Shown here: positions 2,781-54,534 of the stretch, in pieces
Layout of the letters: the number at the start of each line of letters is the position of its first letter
Position numbering within the stretch: position 1 is the stretch's first letter
Assembly (NCBI RefSeq): GCF_950295315.1
Contig: NC_080171.1
Coordinates: forward strand, 35,715,698 to 35,779,697
Length of the DNA: 64,000 nucleotides
Origin: Erinaceus europaeus
Taxonomy: Eukaryota > Chordata > Mammalia > Eulipotyphla > Erinaceidae
Direction: 5' to 3'
The notes under the pieces: model-generated
The model's database searches: none
Told to the model about the DNA's origin: nothing
Seen by the model: the letters and a program-made list of their open reading frames with translations, nothing else
Position numbers and translations under genes: made by a program

Positions 2781-2787
2781 TCTACTT

Positions 2788-3258
2788 CTAGCATTTGCCC
2801 TTCTTCCGTAGCCAGTCAACAGCGTCAGGTTGAGCCTGATGTAAAGTTTTGAGACCTCCTTTGAATCTGGAGAGGTGGCAGTCGTTGACTATGTGGGTCA
2901 TAGTCTGTCTGTAGCCGCAGGGGCAGTTCGGGTCGTCTCTGGCTCCCCAGCGGTGGAACATAGCGGCGCACCGGCCATGGCCTGTTCGATAGCGATTGAG
3001 GAGGGCCCAATCATAACGTGCTAGGTCAAAGCCGGGTTGACGCTTGCAGGGGTCTGTGATGAGGTGTTTGTTCTTTACCTCAGCTGACTGCCAACTCTGT
3101 TTCCAAGAGTCTGGAACAGAGAAGTTCAGTGTAGGCGTAGGAGACCAGATTGCATGACGAGACATCAAACATTGGACAGGGAGGACTCGAAGAGCATGAC
3201 AAACAGCTTGAAAGCTGTCAGGAGCTTGTTGCTGGCTTTGAAAGTGACTGGGATCCAT
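2788..3258 (-). CDS. Intact in-frame fusion ORF: Vingi N-terminus joined to C-terminal zinc-knuckle-like domain (156 aa)
   Basis: A true ATG at 3258-3256 opens MDPSHFQSQQQ, the same N-terminus as the full Vingi ORF. After ~30 residues the frame passes through the deletion junction and continues in the native C-terminal frame (IWSPTPTLNF, then the basic HLITDPCKRQPGFDLARYDW segment) to a C-x-C-x7-H-x4-C motif (CPCG...H...C). It ends with DWLRKKGKC and a TAG stop. Endonuclease and reverse transcriptase are entirely absent. C-terminal Cys/His motifs of this kind occur in many non-LTR retrotransposon proteins and are generally thought to bind nucleic acid. Whether this protein is made is unknown. 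The frame is uninterrupted although the larger copy at 50137 has several lesions. Confidence 0.72.
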   Translation of the reverse strand: MDPSHFQSQQQAPDSFQAVCHALRVLPVQCLMSRHAIWSPTPTLNFSVPDSWKQSWQSAEVKNKHLITDPCKRQPGFDLARYDWALLNRYRTGHGRCAAMFHRWGARDDPNCPCGYRQTMTHIVNDCHLSRFKGGLKTLHQAQPDAVDWLRKKGKC

Positions 3259-3278
3259 GTGGATTCAGTCGGCTAGGA

Positions 3279-3348
3279 AGGATCATCAGTTTCCCCAATG
3301 AATGGGTACTCACGGGATGCACCACGGGAAGGTTGATCCAATGCATCC
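3279..3348 (-). ncRNA. Candidate HDV-like self-cleaving ribozyme at 5' end of the short Vingi
   Basis: This is the same 70-nt 5' segment as at 50137-50206. Reading the minus strand from 3348: P1 GGGATGC with GCATCCC, P2 GGATC with GATCC (5 bp, one more than in the larger copy), P3 ACC with GGT around a 7-nt loop, P4 CCCA with TGGG, and a joining strand containing ACTGAT before the 3' strand of P2. The order and nesting are those of HDV-like ribozymes. The fold was made by hand and activity is untested. Confidence 0.5.
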
Positions 3349-3360
3349 CATAAAGAAACT
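3349..3360. repeat. Target-site duplication, right copy (short Vingi)
   Basis: Exact second copy of the 12-bp 'cataaagaaact' at 2769-2780. Confidence 0.92.
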
Positions 3361-3602
3361 GAGAAATAAGAACAGAAGGGGAAACAAAAAGCAGACTTTG
3401 AACTGTGTTTGGTGTATTGCATCAAAGTAAAGAACTCTGGGGGATGGGAAAAGGAGCATTTCAGGGCCCAGTGCTCGATGGTGGAGGAGGACCTAGACAG
3501 GGGATCATAGTGTTTTTGAAGAAAACTGAGAAATTTACACATGTACCTACATCTGTATTTACTGTTTACTATAAAACCATTAATCCCAATAAAAATTTTT
3601 TA

Positions 3603-4329
3603 AAAATCTGTGGACAAGTGCATTATCTTCTCTGTATGAATTTCTTCTTCTATTGAATGTCAAAACATAAATTATTCCAAAGATAGTGTACAATTTAAAT
3701 ATGGTGCTGTATATAAGATGAATAAGAAAGTACTTGGTGTATATTAAGCATTAAATAAATACCATTAGTAATTAAATGTATTTTGTTATAATAGCAATGA
3801 CAGTTTTCTTAGCATGTTATGTTGTAAAAATCCTCTCTTCAACTGTGGAAAACTTTCTATTGGAAGATGAGTTGTTGTTATTTTAGGAACAGGCCATATG
3901 CATACTTATACAGTATATGTGACTAAACTTATATGCTTGCATTAAAAAGTGACTGCTTTTTAATGATTTAAAACCATCTTCATAGTCACAAGAATTCATT
4001 TCATGAAAGGGAAGGAACAAGTGGCTGATATACACATGATAAATTAATGAGAGAAAGCTAATTAAGGAATGCAAATTAAAACTCAAAGATATTGCTACAA
4101 TTACAAGATTTAACGTCTAGTTAAAAATGTTTAAATGCCATTCAAGTTCAAATACTGGCTTTGACAATGAGTGTAGTAAAGCTTATACACATGTAGAGGA
4201 TTGAAGCTATACTCTCAATATTTCTACAATATTTTAAACCAATGATAAACTGATAAAATTTAAAATGAAATTAGAACGTCTTCATAAAACATGGTGAAAC
4301 AAACTGTAGCAGGGATGCATGCCCTTAAA
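3603..4329. other. AT-rich sequence, nothing recognised
   Basis: There is no coding frame of note and no repeat I recognise. It may include old diverged repeat material. Confidence 0.6.
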
Positions 4330-49670: not shown

Positions 49671-49809
49671 TAGTAGATAACAGAAAACATTTCTTGCTTT
49701 TTTACGATTTTAATTTTGTTGATAAACAAAATGGGGATATCTGGTGTGTTCTATTGGTGCCTCTTAACAAGCTACCTCCAAATGTAATAACTTAAAATAA
49801 CAATTTTAG

Positions 49810-49939
49810 AGTCAGCAAGATAATTCATTTGGATAGTATGCCTGATTTGTCATATGTAAGACCCAGGTTCAAGCACAGCCCCCATATACTGAAAGAAGCA
49901 TTATTGCTGTTTTCTCTCTCTCTCTGTGTGTGTGTGTGT

Positions 49940-49975
<36 letters not shown>
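49810..49975 (+). mobile_element. SINE, second family-like, with (TG)n tail
   Basis: 'gtcagcaagataattcatttggatagtatgcc', box B 'ggttcaagcacagcccc', CT-rich stretch, then (TG)n at 49926-49972. Confidence 0.65.
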
Positions 49976-49979
<4 letters not shown>

Positions 49980-50125
49980 TAGAAAGAGACAGAGACACAC
50001 AGAGAGAATAACAATAATAAGTCTGTGTTTCTGTGTACTTGTGAATTAGGAATTTGAACACTGATACTATTATTGCTTCATGATATCAAGGGCCTTAGCT
50101 ATAATGACAGAAATGACTCAGAATG

Positions 50126-50134
50126 AGCTGGGCA
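50126..50134. repeat. Target-site duplication, left copy (Vingi)
   Basis: 'agctgggca', repeated at 53205-53213. Two extra bases (AC) separate it from the first G of the element, as is common at non-LTR 5' junctions. Confidence 0.8.
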
Positions 50135-50136
50135 AC

Positions 50137-50206
50137 GGGATGCATTGGATAGACCTTCCCGTGGTGCATCCCGTGAGTACCCATTCATTGGGGAAACTGA
50201 CGATCC
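50137..50206 (+). ncRNA. Candidate HDV-like self-cleaving ribozyme at Vingi 5' end
   Basis: Hand fold: P1 GGGATGC (50137-50143) with GCATCCC (50166-50172). P2 GGAT (50147-50150) with ATCC (50203-50206). P3 ACC (50153-50155) with GGT (50163-50165) around the 7-nt loop TTCCCGT. P4 CCCA (50180-50183) with TGGG (50189-50192). The joining strand 50193-50202 has a candidate catalytic C at 50197 (ACTGA). P1 starts at the first base of the element, where HDV-like ribozymes cleave. Such ribozymes occupy the 5' ends of R2, RTE and trypanosome L1Tc/ingi elements, and Vingi is related to Ingi. The ~70-nt size is typical. No energy calculation or assay supports it yet. Confidence 0.55.
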
Positions 50207-50227
50207 TTCCTAGCCGACTGAATCCAC

Positions 50228-53194
50228 ATGGATCCCAGTCACTTTCAAAGCCAGCAACAAGCAGCTCCTGACAGCTTTCAAGCTGTTGGTCCTGCTCTTT
50301 GAGTCCTCCAACTTAATGTTGAGGGGCTGTCCTTTGCCAAACGCGTTCTTATTGGTCAATTGGCGATACAGCATCAGGCAGATGTTATTTGCCTACAAGA
50401 AACACATATAGCAGTCGATGAAGCTGCTCGATTCACCATCAGTGGATTTGATTTAATATGCTATAACCTCCATCCTAAACACAGCCGAGCCATCTACGCT
50501 AAATCGTATCTTGCGGACATTTACCATGTAGCCTCTTCGACCTTCTATGACTCCATTACTATTGGAACTATTCAGCTTGTCAACGTATATAAGCCTCCCA
50601 GTGCCTCATGGGATAATGAGGTCCTGCCTAGCCCGAATCACCCAGCTGTTTACGTTGGAGACTTTAATAGTCATCACCAAGACTGGGGATATTCCTCCAC
50701 TCGTGCTGACGGCTCTGTCTTAGCCAACTGGGCTTCAGCGAATGACCTCTCCCTATTATACGATCCCAAACAGCCAGGCTCTTTTCACAGTGCTAGATGG
50801 AATAAAGACTCGTCACACGACCTGTGCTGGATTAGCACAGTCAACGGCCAAGCCTTTCCCACTACGAGACAAGTTCTCAAGATCTTCCCGCATAGTCATC
50901 ACTGCCCAGCTATCATCCACATTGGTCTCCAGCTCCCACTGATTCTGTGCTCGGAGAAACTAAGATGGAACTTTCGGAAAGCAAACTGGTGTCTGTTCAG
51001 TGATCTTACCAACAAATCTATTCCTGCAATTCCAATTAACTCTATCCCCTCTGAAGATTTCTACAGGCTCTTCCACCAAGCCATCTTCAAAGCAGCTTCC
51101 CAAGCTATTCCTCGTGGAGACATGCTAACTATACGCCTGGTCTTGATGCTGAATGCGAGCAACTACTAAAGCAGTATGATCAGTTGGGCAACCCAGATGT
51201 GGCTGATCATCTCATTGCCTCCCTGGATGCAGCACGCCAAGCCCACTGGCAACAACTCACGGAAAGTCTGAACGTCACCCACTCAAGTAGGAAGGCCTGG
51301 AAGCTTCTTCATAGTCTGGGTGCCGGTAGCCAACCCTCTCCCATCTCCCATCCTCCCGTATCTCCAAACTCAGTGGCCAGTCACCTAACTCAAGTTGGAC
51401 GTGCTGAGATCGACCCAGTCTGGAAAAGAGAAATTTCCCATGAGTGGTCATCCCACTTCCGGTTATCTTGTCCATCTCCAAAACTCTCTCCCTTTACACT
51501 GTCTGAACTGGAAGACACTTTGAAGAGGGTTAAACCAGGAACGGCTGCTGGCTATGATAACATCACCCCAGAACTCATTCTTAACCTGGGTCCCGCGGCA
51601 AAGAAGTGGCTCGCTTCATTCCTGTCCCACATCTTGGAATCTGAGTCTATGCCCAAAGTTTGGCGTCGTGCGAAGATTATAGCGGTTTTGAAACTAAAGA
51701 AAGACCCAACACTGGCCGCCAGCTATAGACCAATTTCTCTCCTCTCCGTGTGTTACAAGCTCCTTGAGAGGCTGCTTCTGTCACGTATTTCTCCTCTTAC
51801 AGAGAAATTCCTATCACCCGCCCAAGCTGGTTTCTACCTGCGAACAAGCCCTGGCCCTCTCAACTTACATTGAAAATGGATTCCAGAAGAATTTAAAGAT
51901 GGGTGCTGTCTTTGTTGATCTCACAGCAGCCTATGACATGGTCTGGCACCGTGGTCTCCTAGTCAAGATCTCAAGATGCCTGCCTCCATGGGTGGCCAAC
52001 ACTATATCGTTTCTTCTCCAAAACAGAAGATTCCGGGTGCATCTGGGTGACAAGTCTAGCAGATGGAGACTTGTCTCAAGTGGCCTCCCCCAGGGCTCTG
52101 TTCTGGCTCCTATGCTATTTAATATTTACATCAATGACCTTCCAGAAACTTCTTCAAGGAAGTTCATCTACGCCGATGACATCTGCTGTGCAACTCAGGC
52201 ATCCAAGTTTGACATCTTCGAGGAAACACTCACAAAAGACATGTCTCTGATATCTGATTACTGTAAAAAATGGCGACTAATCCCTAGCACTGCAAAAACG
52301 GTATCATCTGTTTTCCATCTACACCATGCCTCGGCCTCGCGTGAGCTTAATGTGCAGCTTGATGATACGAGAATCTGGCATGAAGCCCCGCCAGTCTATC
52401 TTGGCATTACTCTCGATTGCACGCTGTCATTTCACGAACATCTCATAAAAACTGCAGCAAAGGTGGGTACGAGGAATAACATCATTGCAAGACTGGCCAG
52501 CTCCTCATGGGGCGCGAGCGCTTCCACACTACGATCATCATCTCTGGCATTATGCTATTCCACTGCAGAATACTGTGCCCCAGTATGGTTCCGTAGCCCC
52601 CATGTCCACTTGGTCGATTCCAAATTATATTCCTCCATGAGGATAATTTCTGGAACCGTCCGTTCCACCCCGGTTCCATGGCTGCCAGTTCTTAGCAACA
52701 TCGCCCCGCCAGATATTCATCAGGATGCGGCATCATCTAAGTTCATTTCCTACGTCTACGCTCGACCTGACCTGCCAATATACGTGGAAATCTTCGCCCA
52801 CCCTGTCCAACGCTTGACGTCTCGTCATCCAATCTGGTCCCCTACACCTACACTGAACTTCTCTGTTCCAGACTCTTGGAAACAGAGTTGGCAGTCAGCT
52901 GAGGTAAAGAACAAACACCTCATCACAGACCCCTGCAAGCGTCAACCCGGCTTTGACCTAGCACGTTATGATTGGGCCCTCCTCAATCGCTATCGAACAG
53001 GCCATGGCCAGTGCGCTGCTATGTTCCATCGCTGGGGAGCCAGAGACGACCCGAACTGCCCCTGCGGCTCCAGACAGACTATGACCCACATAGTCAACGA
53101 CTGCCACCTCTCCAGATTCAAAGGAGGTCTCGAAACTTTACATCAGGCTCAACCTGATGCTGTTGACTGGCTACGGAAGAAAGGCAAACACTAG
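50228..53194 (+). pseudogene. Vingi ORF: endonuclease-reverse transcriptase polyprotein, recently disabled
   Basis: The start is taken as ATG 50228 (MDPSHFQSQQQ) because the short copy uses the same start. Endonuclease (~50306-50960): LQLNVEGL, ICLQETHI (catalytic Glu), YVGDFNSHHQDWG, DLCWIS, and the final catalytic block reads HSHHCPAI where SDH is expected. RT: KPGTAAGYDNITPELI, SYRPISLLSVCYKLLERL, SPAQAGF, VDLTAAYDMVWHRG (motif A), LPQGSVLAPMLFN (B), FIYADDICC (C), VYLGITLD. C-terminus: CPCGSRQTMTHIVNDC, then DWLRKKGKH and TAG. Lesions: TGA at 50300-50302 where the short copy has CGA (a CpG change), a 1-nt loss in 51119-51129, and a small frameshifting deletion right after SPAQAGF (~51830). 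Three open blocks remain, with few lesions, which indicates a young copy. Confidence 0.92.
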
Positions 53195-53204
53195 AAGAAG
53201 AAGA

Positions 53205-53213
53205 AGCTGGGCA
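53205..53213. repeat. Target-site duplication, right copy (Vingi)
   Basis: 'agctgggca' directly after the (AAG)n tail, matching 50126-50134. Confidence 0.8.
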
Positions 53214-54534
53214 TCTAGACTGAGATTAGTGGTTTATGACACTTACTGTGTCCAAAATTTCCCAGTGCTCTTTCCTATGACTTGCCACAAGCCTAAGTGG
53301 ACATAATTCACCACATTAGGCCATAAAGTCACAGGGGGTATTTTCATATAATATATGGCAGCAGTTTTCATAAAGTGATGGCCCAGAATGGAACATCATG
53401 ATTTTTTTTTTCTATATCCTGCCAATCGAAAATCAGAGGAGTTAGGCCTAATTTAATGAGAAGGGAAATGTGTGCCCTCTTAAAGAATAGACTTCTTGTT
53501 CACAGAAGCAGGAAAAAGGTCTGCTGGTTGTCTTGTCATCTATCCTTCTCAGATAACATCCACTAACTACTGTTTGCTTCAGTTGACCTTAAAAGACCCT
53601 CATATTTAGGATGCCTCCAGAATTTTGAATTATGAGTAGATTAGAAAACACTATCTTCTAGTGGCAGCATATTCTCATTTCTAGAGAGTTCTTATAAGGA
53701 AAAACTAAGTTTTGGGGTAGGAATATGTAATCATCTTTGATAATTATTATCATTCTTGTTTGTAATAACTAGAAGTTTGCCAAACACTCAGGCCAAAATT
53801 TACTTTTTTAGCAAGAAGAAATTTACTTTTTTCTCTACAGAAATAGGCAGAGAGAAATATACCACAGCAGTAAAGATTCTTTAGTACAATTGGACCATGC
53901 ACAAGACCATGAAACTGCACATGACAAAGTGAAATTTAATTCATATAATAGCACAGATACAGGGGAAATTATTGATTCAGTCTCTAGCTTGTTTCCCCAA
54001 TATATACCCACTAATGAGTAGGAGGAGTGCTGTATTAAATGTACAATCTGGCTTAAAGCAATGTTCTGTGACTTAAATAGTCCATTACCATACAGATACA
54101 AGAATGAACTTTTCATTTTGGGTTCATACTATAGTTTGTTTGCAACAAACTAGATGCAAACAAACTAATGTGATATGAATAATACTTCAAATGATTATCA
54201 TGTCTTATCCCTTTACCTTTGCAAATGCAAGTTCTTAATCCTGTCCCACCCAATAGATTGATCTGCACCAGAAGAATAGAGAGGATGTGATGGATATAAC
54301 TTCCTATATGTTTGAAAGTTTTCTTCATAATTTTTTTCTTTTGTTTTTTAGGAATTTTAAACATTATTCAAGAAAATTGAGAACATTCATGTTAGGTCAA
54401 GAGAGAAAGATAAAAAGTGAGAAAGAAAGGAGACCCTCAGAAGTGACCCTCAAATGATGACCAACAAGCTCACCTATGCAGAGAAAGAGCCAAGACCATA
54501 GGTCTAGCTTATAATAGCCAAGTGCCGCCTTCAC
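53214..54534. other. No recognised feature
   Basis: AT-rich, single-copy-like sequence. The minus-strand frames at 53835-54364 show no recognisable domain. Confidence 0.5.

Follow-up and report, generated by a model that had tools for sequence, protein, structure and literature searches.

Within the window (the whole 64-kb stretch of hedgehog DNA analysed here), a full-length LINE with a broken reading frame, hereafter copy A, occupies positions 50137–53204 of the forward strand and is presumably a Vingi element. It is flanked by an 11-bp target-site duplication (TSD) with one mismatch (AGCTGGGCAAC at 50126–50136 and AGCTGGGCATC at 53205–53215; 10 of 11 bases identical), of which the 3′ copy follows a (GAA)n tail. 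These flanks place the element start at 50137, or 2 nt earlier if the TSD comprises its 9 identical bases only. Copy A encodes an AP-type endonuclease region (50303–51166, +; Pfam PF14529, 8.6e-12, and PF03372, 1.6e-10) and a reverse transcriptase plus C-terminal region (51698–53191, +; PF00078, 1.5e-18), with the ORF split over several frames. PF03372, PF14529 and PF00078 were the only domains found in copy A and no Pfam match to RNase H was detected, although a decayed RNase H domain could be missed because the reading frame is broken. The Vingi clade, as Kojima is said to have described it in 2011, combines an endonuclease with a reverse transcriptase and lacks RNase H, and the name fits copy A in its domain content. 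In the protein collection, 1168 sequences are related to the reverse transcriptase piece; among the best 120 of these, the closest is 91% identical, the next are 60–61% identical, and 'Vingi' is absent from all of their names. Vingi elements have been reported in hedgehogs and reptiles (PMC5753468).

The endonuclease frame has its first ATG at 50228–50230 (+92), and the predicted ribozyme described below therefore makes up nearly the whole 5′ untranslated region (UTR), taking up 70 of the 91 nt upstream of the copy A start codon. Positions 50137–50230 contain only two ATGs. The other, at +4 and within helix P1, opens a 43-codon frame (50140–50271, +) that overlaps the main start at 50228 in a different frame; if the RNA starts at +1, this ATG is probably too close to the RNA end to be used by scanning. 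An in-frame stop is present in the leader of the copy A reading frame (50300–50302, +), and because of this stop and the splitting of the rest of the ORF over several frames, copy A can very probably no longer encode its protein. Immediately 5′ of the LINE, a SINE-looking stretch (49807–49990, +) closes in a CT/GT microsatellite; it includes GGTTCAAGC, which we take to resemble a tRNA B box, and its microsatellite part alone repeats elsewhere in the window.

A second, short and internally deleted Vingi, copy B, lies at 2781–3349 on the reverse strand and is about 569 nt long. In a blastn comparison of the element with the window, 3349–3180 of copy B corresponds to the element's first 173 nt (94.8% identity) and 3184–2782 to its last 403 nt (95.8%); both the 5′ ribozyme stretch and the 3′ end are thus retained. 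The same comparison gave two more matches, of 18–20 nt (E = 0.57), which were dropped. Copy B has its own exact 11-bp TSD, AGTTTCTTTAT, and is therefore an independent insertion, and an extra G common to both of its flanks leaves its start at 3349 or 3348.

Positions 50137–50206 contain every part of an HDV-type nested double pseudoknot in the order P1, P2, P3 and P4. With P1.1 left out, 19 of 20 helix pairs form in copy A and all 20 in copy B (3280–3349, −), in agreement with the original prediction that all helices of this fold occur here in the right order. P1 joins 50137–50143 to 50166–50172 by seven Watson-Crick pairs out of seven in both copies, and it does begin at the element's first base, as had been proposed, with the TSD placing that start within 0–2 nt. 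P3 joins 50153–50155 to 50163–50165 (3/3 pairs in both copies) and closes a loop, L3, of 7 nt (50156–50162, UUCCCGU), the length claimed for it at the outset. J1.1/4 (50173–50179, GUGAGUA) leads into the P4 hairpin (50180–50192), which has 4 bp (50180–50183 with 50189–50192) and a 5-nt loop. P2 joins 50147–50152 to 50201–50206 through 6 of 6 pairs in copy B and 5 of 6 in copy A. The copy A helix has 4 bp (50147–50150 with 50203–50206), then an A·G mismatch, then a G-C pair (50151–50152 with 50201–50202), so the contiguous P2 of at least 5 bp that was looked for is present in copy B, at 6 bp, and is broken in copy A into 4 bp, a mismatch and 1 bp. About one third of R2 ribozymes are reported to have a mismatch within the first 5 P2 pairs (PMC3774820).

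The strand before the 3′ strand of P2 contains a C, again as first described: J4/2 (50193–50200, GAAACUGA) includes the candidate catalytic base C50197 together with A50200. C50197 is separated from the extended P2 3′ strand by three bases (UGA), with A50200 ending J4/2. The sequence from C50197 through UGA to position 50200 is present in both copies, and the C-to-A spacing is our own reading of it. In silkmoth R2 ribozymes the catalytic C plus an A are described as the conserved bases of the J4/2 region (PMC3774820). C50201 was also considered as the catalytic base and was ruled out, being U in copy B and paired in P2. U50156 and G50161 of L3 are likewise present in both copies. A tertiary, reverse-wobble pair between an L3 U and G is reported in HDV-like ribozymes (PMC3774820), namely U23/G28 in the antigenomic HDV ribozyme (PMC3386971), and the spacing of U50156 and G50161 matches that of U23/G28, by which analogy we would assign them to this pair. 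P1.1 has one or two pairs in HDV-like ribozymes (PMC4908430); here there is one possible G-C pair, C50158–G50173, which as a single pair is indistinguishable from chance, and a second would be U·U.

HDV-like ribozymes cut directly 5′ of the first P1 base. Judged by their TSDs, copies A and B, at unrelated sites, both begin at the first base of P1 within 0–2 nt, and the predicted cleavage site, which in copy A falls between 50136 and 50137, coincides with the insertion start in both copies within the same 0–2 nt. The shared junction is the one that a ribozyme would produce.

Conservation of P1–P4 across copies, which the original prediction had made a test of the structure, is borne out by the 20/20 and 19/20 pairs and one compensatory pair, as far as can be judged from a single family represented by two copies of about 95% identity. 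Of 74 positions, three differ between the copies (50151, 50152 and 50201), all at the inner end of P2, and all positions of P1, P3, L3, J1.1/4 and P4 are identical. The pair 50152/50201 is compensatory, G-C in copy A and A-U in copy B, and 50151/50202 is A·G in copy A and C-G in copy B. Compensatory pairs between the two copies number 1 in 21, a value that two-row shuffles reach in 250 of 500 cases; with three random substitutions, about 1% of trials produce a compensatory pair. Position 50201 (C/T) sits at a CpG in copy A, a site type where change is common. When the 3′ partners are shifted by 1 to 3 columns, 38–48% of positions pair, compared with 97.6% in register, a contrast that is partly built in because the structure was drawn from these same two sequences.

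A model fixed beforehand also matches the stretch. RF00094 (HDV_ribozyme) is the best of 4227 Rfam families for both copies, scoring 19.1 bits in copy A (E = 0.89 for 200 nt and 0.42 for 94 nt) and 27.9 bits in copy B (E = 0.0098 for 110 nt; about 2e-6 for RF00094 alone by our own arithmetic). Both copies align to model positions 1 to 89 with P1 in the same register, and the matched letters fall mostly in P1, P3 and L3. In copy B the predicted catalytic C lies under the C of the model's J4/2 'GGCuAAu'; in copy A the 3′ half is placed some eleven bases early and C50197 is not under the model C. These matches were obtained with permissive thresholds on short stretches, and no Rfam family reaches its cut-off anywhere in the 64-kb window. 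The expected match to an HDV-like model is therefore upheld in rank and falls short in score: because 19.1 and 27.9 bits lie below the RF00094 gathering score of 50 bits, we do not file the stretch as an RF00094 member and place it in the wider HDV-like class. Other Rfam matches were to microRNA and snoRNA families, had worse E-values and scored far below their cut-offs, and were rejected.

The arrangement is rare in sequence of the same composition. A descriptor of the fold (P1 of 7 bp starting with G and with at most one G-U pair; P2 of 4–7 bp; P3 of 3 bp; L3 of 6–8 nt with a C; a G within the two positions that follow P1; P4 of at least 3 bp; and a C 4–6 nt before the P2 3′ strand), which is generous to the candidate because it was composed after seeing it, matches only 50137 (+) and 3349 (−) on both strands of the 64-kb window. 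It matches twice in total in 40 dinucleotide shuffles of the window, and shuffling the 80-nt stretch 20,000 times never produced a match at position 1.

Similar motifs and related elements were also sought in other collections. Of 16 stretches in viral contigs with the motif CGTGGNGNNNNNCGTGAGTACC, none can form a P1 of 7 bp with the 60 nt upstream, and both Vingi copies can; the viral stretches, seven of which represent only two sequences, reach at best 4–6 of 7 P1 pairs and were taken as chance. An exact 17-mer occurs in one viral-contig stretch, where the P1 partner is absent within 60 nt. Reverse transcriptase protein searches of viral contigs gave 3, then 5, pattern stretches with no relative among them, and the corresponding search of genome contigs gave 60 stretches with one relative (33% identity). 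This LINE-related reverse transcriptase occupies 3012–3725 (+) of a 4.9-kb contig, L002, filed under a Flavobacteriales metagenome-assembled genome (MAG), and is possibly eukaryotic contamination; an Rfam search of the contig gave 4 matches with E-values of up to 5, all to families that are not HDV-like.

A competing nested fold has to be weighed against the pseudoknot. In both copies the pseudoknot-free minimum-free-energy fold keeps P1 and lengthens it to a 10-bp hairpin, GGGAUGCAUU/GGUGCAUCCC, that excludes P2 and P3. This hairpin is worth −28.4 kcal/mol in copy A and −26.4 kcal/mol in copy B, versus −19.4 kcal/mol for P1+P3+P4, and P2 as a lone duplex contributes −3.3 (A) or −6.7 (B) kcal/mol, energies that exclude coaxial and pseudoknot stacking. 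By these figures the two folds are nearly balanced in copy B, and in copy A the pseudoknot is calculated to be the less favourable one. HDV-like ribozymes fold during transcription. The stretch could instead be a plain, non-catalytic 10-bp hairpin of the 5′ UTR, serving for example in reverse transcriptase binding or translation and resembling HDV by coincidence. Such a hairpin is the minimum-free-energy nested fold of both copies, and in copy A its stability has a z of −2.41, equalled by 6 of 200 shuffles. It does not account, however, for an HDV model matching at full length and ranking first among 4227 families, for the L3 core and P4, for the presence and spacing of the C, for the compensatory pair in P2 or for the start at the insertion junction, and we consider it highly improbable.

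The energies bear also on whether a genuine ribozyme still works. Even in an active family, copy A may cleave weakly or not at all. More broadly, the Vingi lineage could once have been active and these copies, perhaps with the whole family, no longer cleave, an internal promoter being used instead. The P2 mismatch of copy A and its more stable competing hairpin are what such a relic would look like, and activity is reported to have been lost in some trypanosomatid Pr77 copies, for example Leishmania braziliensis SIDER2A (PMC4035085). Decay of this kind is harder to reconcile with copy B, in which every one of the 20 pairs and the candidate catalytic C are present, or with P1, P3, L3, J1.1/4 and P4 being identical at every position in the two copies; we regard it as unlikely.

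Taken together, the helices, the model match, the coincidence of insertion junctions in two insertions and the one compensatory pair make it highly likely, in our estimation, that the first 70 nt of Vingi form an HDV-like self-cleaving ribozyme that frees the element RNA from a longer transcript, which is the interpretation originally put forward for the Vingi 5′ end. In the scheme we propose, Vingi would be transcribed from an upstream promoter within a longer RNA, and its 5′ stretch would fold into the nested double pseudoknot (P1, P1.1, P2, P3 and P4). With C50197 as the general acid, by analogy with HDV, the RNA would be cut just 5′ of G50137, and the released RNA would start exactly at the element with a 5′-OH and no cap. 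As the released RNA would keep the ribozyme, each full-length copy would pass it on. This RNA would serve as the template for target-primed reverse transcription and would probably be translated without a cap, and short internally deleted derivatives would keep the ribozyme 5′ end. Release from a cotranscript has been reported for R2 and L1Tc (PMC3774820, PMC4035085, PMC8190864).

The last alternative concerns the motif CGTG at +24 to +27 of copy A. In L1Tc, where the motif is at +25 to +28, the Pr77 sequence is described as both promoter and ribozyme, and mutation of CGTG affects the ribozyme P3 loop (PMC4748587). The Pr77 resemblance noted in the original prediction thus holds for CGTG, the part covered by the comparison, with an offset of one position. 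Here CGTG could accordingly be read as the downstream promoter element of a DNA-level promoter of the Pr77 kind, with the RNA fold secondary. CGTG cannot tell the two apart because it also lies within the ribozyme core, but a promoter needs neither seven perfect P1 pairs, nor P2 pairing across 50 nt, nor a compensatory change, and we consider this promoter reading very unlikely.

If the ribozyme reading is correct, no mobile element of a mammal would previously have been credited with an HDV-like ribozyme, within the limits of the literature search. Among the titles listed from the open-access literature (5.39 million papers, a scope outside which the 2011 Vingi and L1Tc ribozyme papers fall), none concerned a ribozyme of Vingi, in line with the earlier remark that none was known for a mammalian Vingi, and to our knowledge a mammalian LINE with recent activity has not been described as carrying an HDV-like ribozyme. 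That an animal relative of Ingi should have a ribozyme is no surprise in itself. One account of the class names CPEB3 as the mammalian HDV-like ribozyme (PMC4908430). Copy B shows that a short derivative can keep the ribozyme stretch. The hedgehog family Vingi-1N3_EE is listed with 311 copies less than 1% diverged, of 475 in its table row, the largest such family in that list (PMC3183009), and it might possibly keep the stretch likewise. We regard as evenly balanced the broader proposition that a mammalian LINE with recent activity, together with its short derivatives, has seeded one genome with hundreds of working HDV-like ribozymes, with sense copies in introns and UTRs cutting host transcripts and the element itself promoterless, riding on host transcription. 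A working ribozyme would account for how a 3-kb LINE with a 91-nt 5′ UTR retains its exact 5′ end. It would also provide a natural mammalian system of many near-identical ribozymes, possibly in host genes, whose consequences for host RNA could be followed in RNA-seq data. Finally, it would link an animal Ingi relative to the trypanosome ribozymes and make it possible to ask whether the ribozyme predates their split or has arisen again.

HDV-like ribozymes occur in RTE-type elements. They are established at the 5′ ends of the LINEs R2, R4, Dong, Baggins and L1Tc (PMC3774820). The closest parallel is with the trypanosomatid L1Tc/ingi clade, in which ribozymes have been demonstrated at the 5′ end (PMC4035085). 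The Pr77 ribozymes of this clade (L1TcRz, NARTco and SIDER2A) share the 5′ terminal position and +1 cleavage site with the Vingi prediction, are of similar size (77 nt in L1Tc and mostly 78–96 nt in the tested constructs, compared with 70 nt in Vingi), and also occur in short relatives with both ends kept (PMC4035085). Copy B likewise resembles the trypanosome RIME and NARTc elements as a short derivative that keeps its 5′ end. The sequences themselves differ, Vingi starting with GGGATGC and the 5′Pr77 primer with CCCTGGC (PMC4748587); in passages of five papers, no Pr77 sequence beyond that 15-base primer was found (PMC4748587, PMC8190864, PMC12278014, PMC2424063, PMC5509151). Unlike L1Tc/ingi, Vingi has a host that is not a trypanosomatid, and an RNase H match is absent in copy A.

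R2 elements, in Drosophila, birds and others, have an HDV fold at the LINE 5′ end, as predicted for Vingi, and their endonuclease is of another type. The Vingi core CCUUCCCGUGG matches 9 of 11 positions of CCUCCUCGUGG, described as the most conserved stretch of the R2 ribozyme (PMC5035012), a level of match found 14 times in the window when both strands are counted and the Vingi copies included. R2 SIDEs consist of the ribozyme and the 3′ end and are internally deleted (PMC3414825), as is copy B. R2 inserts into 28S genes (PMC3414825, PMC3774820), whereas the two Vingi copies lie at unrelated sites, and J1/4 is 0–2 nt in R2 (PMC3774820) and longer in Vingi. R2 is reported not to have been found in mammals (PMC5753468). 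Among mammalian ribozymes, that of CPEB3 is not known to be part of a mobile element; it is HDV-like and present in mammalian genomes (PMC4908430), within an intron of the host gene (PMC10919898). The self-cleaving ribozyme reported in human LINE-1 (PMC11620745) also belongs to a mammalian LINE, but is twister-sister-like, and not HDV-like as predicted for Vingi.
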